DNA from: Prochlorococcus sp. MIT 1223
GTDB lineage: Bacteria > Cyanobacteriota > Cyanobacteriia > PCC-6307 > Cyanobiaceae
Direction: 5' to 3'
Assembly: GCF_034092465.1 (NCBI RefSeq)
Contig: NZ_CP139303.1
Span: 558,001 to 622,000, forward strand
DNA length: 64,000 bases
Part shown: piece by piece, positions 47,567 through 50,741 of the stretch
How positions within the stretch are numbered: position 1 is the stretch's first letter
How the letters are laid out: each line of letters begins with the position of its first letter
Made by a program: the position numbers and the translations under genes
The notes under the pieces: generated by a model
The model's input: only the letters and a program-made list of their open reading frames with translations
The model's database searches: none
Told to the model about the DNA's origin: nothing

Positions 47567-48142
47567 TTATTGAATCAACTCAGGAGGCAAGTCAATACGA
47601 CTTAACTTCCAATGAAAAAGGCCTTCCCTCAACCAATAAGTTTTTATAGGTTGACTTAAATTATTTACTTTAGTACTTAAGATAAAGATATTCAGGCCCT
47701 GATAATAAAGATTTACTTTTATATCTTCCTCCTCCCATTGATCTTGATAGATTCTTGCATCTGTCAATAATTGGCCTTTATTAAGAAGTAATCTTAGACC
47801 ATTATTTGTGACAGTGTAGTCAACTATTGAATCTACCATTTTCTCGAACACGGGATTAATCAGTGTCAATGAGAATGGAGATAATCTATTTCTATATTTG
47901 TTTAAAGCTTTATTTCTCAAGTTATTGGTCAATTGAGATTTAAGATCGCTTCTAAGCGAAGAGAAGTTTATATATTTATTAGCTTTTCTCGACTGCCTAT
48001 TCTCTATCGCAGTTTTAAAAAAGAAGATTGATAAATATGGAGTAGAATAAAAGTATCCAAAGAAAATTAAAAAACTAATTACAAGGAGCCTGGTATTTAA
48101 TTTATTAAATATTTTTATTGAAAATAAACTTTTCATCGGCAT
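47567..48142 (-). CDS. DUF2939-like membrane-anchored protein
   Basis: A 191-residue protein with an N-terminal helix (LLVISFLIFFGYFYSTPYLS). The next segment, FFFKTAIENRQSRKANKYIN, followed by FSSLRSDLKSQL, is the DUF2939 pattern, which begins right after the membrane anchor. The rest is beta-rich and ends WKLSRIDLPPELI. Function unknown; probably exposed to the periplasm. Confidence 0.7.
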   Translation of the reverse strand: MPMKSLFSIKIFNKLNTRLLVISFLIFFGYFYSTPYLSIFFFKTAIENRQSRKANKYINFSSLRSDLKSQLTNNLRNKALNKYRNRLSPFSLTLINPVFEKMVDSIVDYTVTNNGLRLLLNKGQLLTDARIYQDQWEEEDIKVNLYYQGLNIFILSTKVNNLSQPIKTYWLREGLFHWKLSRIDLPPELIQ

Positions 48143-48380
48143 CCTAAATTAGTCTATTCTAAACAATGGTCTACTATTAACACTTTAGAAGTCCAACAAT
48201 AAATACAGAATTATTTCCACAGGTATTTAATCCTATTAAAAATATCTTCTCTCAATTGCTTAGTTCAATATTCGTCTTTGGAGATTCACTTAACTCATAA
48301 TTTCAATAGTTGTTTTTAGCAAAGTACTAATTATCTTACTTTTAAACTGATAATGCAATGGGCATTAAGGCTGATTGCAT
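48143..48380. other. intergenic region upstream of the structured segment
   Basis: AT-rich and without a recognisable gene. It is likely to hold promoters for the minus-strand DUF2939 gene and perhaps for the structured RNA-like segment that follows. Confidence 0.4.
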
Positions 48381-48736
48381 TAAATGTCAGAAAGGAGAAA
48401 AATAAGTTCAGAACTCGGAGGTACCAAATGTCGGTCGACACTCCACCTGAGTATCCCCCAGAAGTAATCTGACTTCTGGTTCCTGCTCCAACAGTCTCAA
48501 TGACAAAGTAAGCTTGCGTCTGATGCGACAAAGACAATTGACATCTATCTAGGACAAGATGGATGTATTTTGCCAAGGATCAATGATTTAGGTGCGGCAA
48601 AACAATTAAGAACGTCAAATCAGTCGTATCTCTTCTGCATCGTATAGGTGCCCTCAAAAGAGATATAGCTTCACACCTAGAAAAATGGCCCCAGGTGCCA
48701 AAGCCAAGGTCTTCGAAAAGCTGGCGTAAATGCCAT
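48381..48736 (+). ncRNA. possible structured RNA or gene remnant of raised G+C
   Basis: About 350 bases with clearly higher G+C than their surroundings, holding a perfect hairpin (CCAGAAGT, loop AATCTG, ACTTCTGG at 48458-48479) and followed by a strong terminator at 48737-48770. On the minus strand, a frame with a TTG start (48331-48576, 81 residues) has no ribosome binding site. On the plus strand three short frames in different phases carry protein-like residues. I favour a non-coding RNA, with a decayed gene as the alternative. I could not match it to 6S RNA, tmRNA, RNase P or SRP RNA. Confidence 0.35.
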
Positions 48737-48770
48737 AAATAAAAAAGGGCCTCTTGGCCCTTTTTTATTT
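48737..48770 (+). terminator. strong Rho-independent terminator
   Basis: AAATAAAAAAGGGCC, loop TCTT, GGCCCTTTTTTATTT. It closes the structured segment on the plus strand and could act on the minus strand as well. No annotated gene ends immediately before it. Confidence 0.9.
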
Positions 48771-48891: not shown

Positions 48892-49008
48892 ATGCACGCC
48901 TTCGCTCAACTCTGTGGAATAGTTGGATTTGCTCTTTATATTGTCTATTTCATTGGAGGAAAAAGCGACAATGACGGACAAGGAGTAAATCTTCCTGCTA
49001 AAAAGTAG
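48892..49008 (+). CDS. small membrane protein, 38 aa
   Basis: Hand-translated from the ATG at 48892: a helix (FAQLCGIVGFALYIVYFIGG) followed by a polar tail (KSDNDGQGVNLPAKK). The size suggests a minor membrane-complex subunit, but I do not recognise one. A hairpin at 49047-49097 may terminate it. Confidence 0.6.
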   Translation: MHAFAQLCGIVGFALYIVYFIGGKSDNDGQGVNLPAKK

Positions 49009-49241: not shown

Positions 49242-50741
49242 GTGTCACTGAGGCTAACCAACACACTCACAAAGAAGAAAGAAGATTTCTTTTCTCTTGT
49301 ACCCAATAAAGTAAGTATTTATTGTTGCGGGGTAACTGTTTATGACCTATGTCATATCGGTCATGCTCGCAGTTACATTGTTTGGGACATTTTAAGGAGA
49401 TTTTTGACTTGGGAAGGGTTTGAAGTGACTTTTGTCCAAAATTTCACTGATATCGATGACAAAATCCTAAAGAAAGCCGCTGAAGAAGGTTGCTCCACAA
49501 ATGAAATCACCGAAAGAAATATAAAGGCCTTTCATCGTGATATGGATTCATTAGGTATTTTGCGTCCAGATAGTATGCCTCGAGCCACCAATTGTATTGA
49601 TGGCATATGCAATTTAATAAGAGAGTTAGAAGATAAAGGTGCTGCTTATTCAAAAAATGGAGATGTTTATTTTTCAGTTGAGAAGCACAAAGAATATGGG
49701 AAGTTAAGTCAAAGATCACTTGAAGAGCAGCAAATAGATGCTCATGGAAGGCTTACTAAAGGAGAGAAAGAAAACAAAAAAAATCAATTTGACTTTGCTT
49801 TATGGAAAAGTGCCAAAGAAGGTGAAACCAGCTTCCCCTCTCCATGGGGCGCTGGCAGACCTGGATGGCATATTGAATGTTCTGCAATGGTAAGGAAGGA
49901 ACTCGGCGAAACAATTGACATTCACCTAGGTGGGTCTGATCTTGTCTTTCCCCATCATGAAAACGAAATAGCTCAATCCGAAACAGCTAATGGGAAAGAA
50001 TTAGCTAAATATTGGCTTCACAATGGAATGGTGAATGTAGAAGGGAAAAAAATGAGTAAATCATTAGGTAACTTCAAGACAATTAGATCACTTCTAGAAA
50101 GTGGTTATTCCGCAATGAGTTTAAGATTATTTGTTTTACAAACTCATTACCGCAAACCACTAGACTTCACACAGGATGCACTCGATTCCGCAGCAAAAGG
50201 TTGGGATGGAATAAACTCAGCACTTTGCATTAGCCTTAAGTATTTTAATTATTTAAATTGGCCACATCCACATAAAGCAATTGAAGTGCTTGATAATCAA
50301 TCAAAAGAGGAAGTTCTTACTGAAGAGTATTCCAAGCAATATCAAAGTTTTATTGAGGCAATGAATGATGATCTAAATACTTCAGCGGCACTTTCAGTAA
50401 TCTTTCAAATTGCAAAGCCACTTCGATCACTTTCAAATAATATTGAAAGAGGCTCAATTGATGTAATTACTGAATTAGAAAAAGCAAAACATTATAATCG
50501 ATGGAAATTCCTATTAAAATTAACTAATATTTTAGGACTAAAAGCAGAGATAAATAATATTAATCCTATTAATAAAGAGCTAAGCAATGAAGCAATAGAA
50601 ACATTAATAAAAGAAAGAATTGATGCAAAACTATTAAGAGACTTCTCGAGAGCTGATCAGATAAGGGAAGTTTTAAGAAATAAAGGAATAGATCTTATTG
50701 ATAAAAAAGATGGCACTACATCATGGATTTTCATTAAATAG
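49242..50741 (+). CDS. cysS: cysteinyl-tRNA synthetase
   Basis: A 499-residue class I aminoacyl-tRNA synthetase. Zinc and Cys binding start at YCCGVTVYD (Cys28/29). The ATP-binding motifs are HIGH at 36-39 ([10 protein letters not shown]) and KMSKS near 269 ([12 protein letters not shown]). Further zinc ligands are in HIECSAM and HHENE. The start is a GTG, giving the normal N-terminus [16 protein letters not shown]. It charges tRNA-Cys. Confidence 0.95.

Follow-up and report, generated by a model that had tools for sequence, protein, structure and literature searches.

Positions 48381 to 48770 of the window (the whole analyzed stretch, 64,000 nucleotides of Prochlorococcus sp. MIT 1223) probably hold an RNA gene of the Yfr103 family, in which a dyad operator stands before a transcript of ~360 nt that combines a translated micro-ORF at its 5' end with a branched RNA core and would thus be a dual-function RNA. 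An earlier note had described the segment as G+C raised amid AT-rich surroundings, with a perfect 8-bp hairpin and a strong terminator, and these features were all found. G+C content was 42.6%, compared with an average of 34.4% for the window (sd, 4.9%) and ~25 to 28% just upstream, and 4.2% of 390-base pieces were as G+C rich; the hairpin is formed by CCAGAAGT and ACTTCTGG, and the terminator is AAAAAAGGGCCTCTTGGCCCTTTTTT. The predicted fold was more stable than that of shuffled sequences (z = -4.4), and the ORF list held no plus-strand ORF of at least 40 amino acids covering the segment. The further claim that there was no clear gene did not stand, since the match to covariance model R1 (E = 3e-49) identifies a real RNA gene and not a broken protein. 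The limits given in the earlier note need extension on the 5' side, where the palindrome (48356 to 48377) and the probable transcript start (~48408) lie. This start was placed at ~48408 because the starts of Yfr8, Yfr11, and Yfr16 mapped by rapid amplification of cDNA ends (RACE) lie 8 to 9 nt before the same GGAGG. The gene appears to be autonomous, with its own promoter and terminator, transcription of the window copy being predicted from the published family.

Table 1. Coordinates of the predicted Yfr103-family RNA gene, its parts, and its neighbors in the window
Feature	Position	Strand	Basis or remark
Flanking gene for 191-aa protein, upstream neighbor, outside the RNA	47567..48142	-	ORF list
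Imperfect palindrome CAATGGGCATTAAGGCTGATTG (probable RNA gene operator)	48356..48377	+	Conserved upstream of the RNA
Structured RNA core, covariance model R1 positions 1-241 of 241	48406..48719	+	175.3 bits, E = 3e-49
Predicted Yfr103-family transcript, ~359 nt	48408..48766	+	5' end inferred from Yfr8/Yfr11/Yfr16 RACE starts; 3' end from terminator
Shine-Dalgarno GGAGG	48417..48421	+	In 161 distinct relatives, nearly always GGAGG or close variant before start
Micro-ORF MSVDTPPEYPPEVI*, 14 codons and stop	48428..48472	+	Conserved start, frame, and codon changes
Perfect 8-bp hairpin CCAGAAGT/ACTTCTGG	48458..48479	+	Sequence and single-sequence fold
Nearly invariant core CCTGCTCCAACA, 5' strand of central helix	48482..48493	+	Invariant in alignments A1 and A2
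Lineage-specific hairpin TTTTGCC-AAGGATCAATGATTTAGGTGC-GGCAAAA with 21-nt conserved Prochlorococcus loop	48568..48602	+	
Intrinsic terminator AAAAAAGGGCCTCTTGGCCCTTTTTT	48741..48766	+	Perfect inverted repeat with T run
Flanking cysteinyl-tRNA synthetase-like gene, outside the RNA	49242..50741	+	ORF list

The fold of the RNA was assessed with R1, which was built from 22 relatives with the window left out and which matches the window at one place only (175 bits). Among these 22 sequences, 91.6% of pair cells were paired, and double-sided changes were seen in 23 of 54 pairs, compared with 10.6 in shuffles (none of 500 shuffles reached 23), although the structure was itself derived from related sequences, so that the finding of the window by R1 is the independent test. 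Structures slid by 1 to 3 columns failed the covariation control. When its input was restricted to 70 sequences, RNAalifold gave a consensus fold whose covariation term was large, with the mutual-information pairs ranked first and third on its helices; an earlier set of 57 sequences that included Cyanobium types folded poorly, probably through misalignment. The covariation supports a branched fold with long-range closing helices. In the consensus fold, GAAGC pairs with a 3' GCTTC in place of the 8-bp hairpin, which overlaps both the end of the micro-ORF and AGAAG, the 5' strand of the long-range closing helix; this hairpin could be an alternative to the consensus fold.

No frame with a good start had been recognized in the segment before. 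The GGAGG at 48417 to 48421 is, however, followed by an ATG at 48428 that opens an ORF of 14 codons, and this start is conserved. In relatives, GGAGG or a close variant is followed after ~4 to 10 nt by a start codon that shares its frame with the codons of D-T-P-P-E. The start was in this frame in all 118 distinct relatives first tested, against 1 and 4 for the other two frames; the distance from start to DTPPE was a multiple of three, whereas that from Shine-Dalgarno to start was not. A start one codon further upstream takes the place of the usual ATG where this has turned into ACG, ACA, or TCG. When mapped on a tree of the downstream RNA, the 60 changes in the five core codons fell on codon positions 1, 2, and 3 in the proportion 11:6:43, and 38 of 57 codon changes were synonymous (24% expected at random), statistics that are somewhat biased by the choice of sequences through a loose codon pattern and by base pairs in the same stretch. 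Part of the conservation of the micro-ORF may be structural, because the ORF runs through paired bases.

Such an ORF was kept at 160 of 161 distinct loci, 156 by an automatic rule and 4 by eye (including L239, where GGAGG is replaced by GGGGG). The remaining one is a variant common to two of the seven CC9605-type copies (L206, L254, and L257), in which a 1-nt deletion breaks the DTPPE frame. The ORF has 7 to 25 codons in relatives, mostly 8 to 14, with the consensus M(x)xD[T/S]PPE... and a C terminus of varying length. Homologues from high-light strains, in which the RNA is much diverged, encode MIDSLPEISE or close variants, and PP is not kept (SLPE). The segment accordingly holds a conserved ORF and ribosome-binding site inside an RNA whose separate transcription is predicted from the published family, as expected of a dual-function small RNA. 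SgrS/SgrT and RNAIII (named in PMC2518516) likewise carry a short ORF in a structured, separately transcribed RNA; unlike in these, the ORF here mostly has just 8 to 14 codons and lies at the extreme 5' end.

R1 has seven full-length matches and one partial match in a genome of 2,510,659 bp, which we take to be Synechococcus CC9605. The RNA is also present in RCC307 and in R1-matching genomes that we take to be SS120, NATL2A, MIT9313, and CC9902; further genomes referred to here are presumably MED4, AS9601, and MIT9301. Published Yfr103 has seven paralogues of 290 to 328 nt in CC9605, which together make up 55.2% of the mdRNA-Seq reads of that strain; among the ncRNAs of MIT9313 it ranks first in abundance, its function is called 'enigmatic', its homologues in the listed marine Synechococcus and low-light Prochlorococcus have a strongly conserved secondary structure, and an imperfect palindrome lies at -58 to -29 of its start (PMC5069720). 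The RNA described here has the same multi-copy habit, conserved structure, upstream palindrome, strain distribution, and number of CC9605 copies. Because the seven copies in the CC9605-type genome, the strain distribution, and the palindrome distance match, the window element was filed as Yfr103, a putative assignment based on distribution, copy number, upstream palindrome, and presumed genome identities. At ~359 nt the window transcript is longer than the CC9605 copies, which is explained by an insertion of ~75 nt, and the published range sets no defining limit elsewhere. The published list is without the high-light Prochlorococcus (diverged) and Cyanobium-type homologues found here (PMC5069720).

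The earlier note had alternatively proposed an uncharacterized RNA. That it is an RNA was borne out; the family had, however, already been described as Yfr103 (PMC5069720), and the conserved 5' micro-ORF gives it a probable coding part. This micro-ORF is not mentioned in the main-text section on Yfr103 of PMC5069720, nor was it found elsewhere in the limited literature covered, beyond which an earlier report may exist. These comparisons suggest that the RNA family is known and that what may be new is the conserved 5' micro-ORF and its link to Yfr8, Yfr11, and Yfr16.

Across picocyanobacteria, R1 matched 209 of 222 genomes with 1 to 9 copies each, and a DNA search of 60 relatives gave matches in 32 genomes, nearly all from the window's own family and often several per genome. 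Diverged homologues were found in high-light Prochlorococcus, including the genome taken as MED4 (979894 to 980096), and homologues were found in Cyanobium-type genomes too. Outside the family, R1 found nothing convincing in a sample of the class (one weak match), and no match to the RNA was found in phage records; two IMG/VR contigs (L267 and L268) match the exact core pattern. Scattered pattern matches in unrelated bacteria did not agree with the profile and were dropped. The search of Rfam suggested in the earlier note gave no family for the segment: with gathering and permissive thresholds, only chance matches were obtained, mostly on the terminator, and the RNA is absent from Rfam. Two RNAs that are likewise abundant, structured, and of similar size were rejected as candidates, 6S RNA (no RF00013 match at the segment; the 6S RNA of the genome, Yfr7, lies at 142426 to 142605) and cyanobacterial tmRNA (no RF01851 or ARAGORN match at the segment; the tmRNA of the genome lies at 1106729 to 1107018). 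In the genome taken as CC9902, four copies (L182, L196, L205, and L208) have equal model scores and near-identical readings through the RNA, which suggests recent duplication or gene conversion. The genome taken as CC9605 holds a mini version (L260, 127 to 230, minus strand) with the micro-ORF MRDDSPTEQDLEAA and the closing helix and without the RNA core.

We take the downstream neighbor of the RNA to be cysS and the 191-aa minus-strand gene to stand downstream of polA (names read from the sequences). The order of a 191- to 194-aa protein, the RNA, and cysS recurred in two genomes from the same genus; a conserved genomic context was not found outside close relatives, and no functional partner was suggested by it. 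The RNA lies near the same small zinc-ribbon-like gene in the genomes taken as MED4, AS9601, and MIT9313. Between the RNA and cysS, a small ORF (MHAFAQLCGIVGFALYIVYFIGGKSDNDGQGVNLPAKK; 48892 to 49008, plus strand) resembles a small membrane protein.

The window copy owes its extra ~75 nt to a lineage-specific insertion common to the close relatives L002 to L004, and this insertion takes in the hairpin at 48568 to 48602. The 21-nt loop AAGGATCAATGATTTAGGTGC is nearly invariant across Prochlorococcus, whereas the stem varies, being TTTTGCC/GGCAAAA in the window, GAGTTAAC/GTTAACTC in L004, and AACAAC/GTTGTT in L311. In the searched genomes, the mismatch-free loop was seen only in this RNA. The loop hairpin caps a core hairpin in most low-light copies, lies downstream in high-light copies, and in one strain is found inside a Yfr16-like transcript, and it looks like a transferable module (L311, 97 to 210; window, 48568 to 48602).

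The other Prochlorococcus genomes searched have the palindrome at the equivalent position upstream of the RNA, high-light homologues have it at the same distance, and in most of seven genomes searched it was confined to the RNA gene. Its position relative to the start at ~48408 agrees with that published for Yfr103. From the end of the palindrome to GGAGG there are 40 nt in the window and 42 to 43 nt in Yfr8-like and two other types of transcript; in Yfr11 and Yfr16 the palindrome is visible but less perfect, and MED4 Yfr8 has a symmetric variant (AATCGG..CCGATT). A regulon search with a loose palindrome gave mostly chance-level matches. The MIT9301-type genome has further palindrome sites, one of them within a coding region and another ahead of an open frame of 58 aa. 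At the latter (L297, ~1327392, minus strand, in the genome taken as MIT9301), an exact palindrome precedes the frame without the Shine-Dalgarno-micro-ORF arrangement, and the frame is a possible further target of the same regulator.

The pattern of a Shine-Dalgarno followed by M[IV]DS[PL]P was found 1 to 5 times per genome, mostly three times, in 22 high-light genomes, in which the reversed control pattern had no match. The genome taken as MED4 has four sites with the pattern, one in the Yfr103 homologue and one each at the 5' end of Yfr8, Yfr11, and Yfr16. The RACE-mapped starts of these three RNAs (PMC2518516) lie 8 to 9 nt before GGAGG (L304 [339800 to 340350], L306, and L307), and the encoded peptides are MIDSPPEI, MIDSPPENLMRLV, and MIDSPPEKFIRLV, respectively. 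They resemble the window RNA in this start, in the MIDSPPE... micro-ORF, and in a similar palindrome at a comparable distance; farther downstream, R1 detects no relationship to the Yfr103 core. Yfr8, Yfr11, and Yfr16 were treated as noncoding in 2008, when peptide ORFs were named only for Yfr6 and Yfr9 (PMC2518516); Yfr11 and Yfr16 are responsive to light and DCMU (PMC2518516), and Yfr8 and Yfr16 are long-lived (PMC2897979). The micro-ORF was not found in the Yfr6/Yfr14 and Yfr17 regions of the genome taken as MED4. A further transcript-like unit of high-light strains combines the same palindrome with the ORF MIDSPPEEFNYKI (or a variant of it), after which little more than a spacer precedes the terminator; no name was found for this unit (L300, 109 to 330; L272, L273, L275, and L312). 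Judged by their 5' ends, Yfr103, Yfr8, Yfr11, and Yfr16 look like one family of micro-ORF transcripts.

We propose that the dyad operator, ~30 to 55 nt upstream of the start, would control the promoter of the Yfr103-family gene. The transcript would start 8 to 9 nt before the strong Shine-Dalgarno and would carry first the micro-ORF and then the branched core with its Prochlorococcus-specific loop module. Upon translation of the micro-ORF, a ribosome would cover GAAGC, the 5' strand of the closing helix, and would open the hairpin that holds GGAGG. Since GGAGG lies in a hairpin and the end of the ORF overlaps the GAAGC strand, ribosomes and the folded core may be mutually exclusive, and translation of the ORF would be coupled to folding of the core. 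The core would then work as a stable RNA, probably a regulatory one, on a presumed target. As to the main product, the evidence leans toward the peptide and away from translation as such or the RNA core, because its amino acids are conserved and the ORF is kept in transcripts without the core.

Several other explanations were weighed. The chance that the segment is a frameshifted remnant of a protein gene or a sequencing error, which the earlier note had entertained from protein-like residues in several frames, is close to nil. The protein-like stretches do sit in different frames, as this explanation has it; they are, however, chance readings of a conserved RNA, ILPRINDLGAAK (read as ILPRINDLG) being the translation of the hairpin at 48568 to 48602 and RIGALKRDIASHLEKW that of the conserved 3' half of the core. 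The corresponding frames are interrupted by stops in the relatives examined, no intact long reading frame was found through the segment in orthologues, and the covariation, the compensatory base changes, and the match to R1 all argue against a remnant. A purely noncoding structured RNA, in which GGAGG...ATG...DTPPE is a hairpin or binding site and the frame a by-product, is improbable. In the consensus fold, the 5' stretch does form helices 1 and 2, and Yfr103 (PMC5069720) and Yfr8, Yfr11, and Yfr16 (PMC2518516) were all published as noncoding, but the invariable frame of the start among the 118 relatives, the excess of synonymous codon changes, the replacement of lost starts one codon upstream, and the conservation of the ORF in transcripts lacking the core speak against it.

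Translation itself, and not its product, might be what matters. As with leader peptides, ribosomes that paused on the PPE codons or the stop would control how the RNA folds, how long it lives, or how its 3' end is processed, and the position of the ORF at the extreme 5' end, with its 3' part overlapping the closing helix, is consistent with this. XPPX motifs, the kind associated with EF-P, are slow for ribosomes, and PPE is of this slow type. The loss of PP in the high-light homologue nevertheless weakens the idea of stalling, and the ORF also occurs in short transcripts where a spacer and terminator alone follow it, so that we consider a regulatory leader rather unlikely, if worth keeping in mind. 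The very high published abundance of the paralogues (PMC5069720), the strong Shine-Dalgarno and start near the 5' end, and the shortness of the ORF would also suit a translation sponge that binds ribosomes or initiation factors through GGAGG-ATG and yields the peptide as a side product; this is very unlikely, as conservation reaches amino acids beyond the initiation site. A dual-function RNA with a translated micro-ORF is the most likely reading.

Covariance model R1 describes a family missing from Rfam, and ORFs as short as about ten codons, which fall under annotation limits, are recognizable by the turnover of their start codons. The conserved micro-ORF in Yfr103, common to three other orphan RNAs, offers a testable handle on an enigmatic abundant RNA. 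It is possible, and we suggest it with some reserve, that Yfr103 and the high-light Yfr8, Yfr11, and Yfr16 form one regulon of M(x)xD[T/S]PPE micro-peptide genes, governed by one regulator through the shared dyad and with the peptide as the conserved product, which would then account for a large part of the 'noncoding' transcription of picocyanobacteria.
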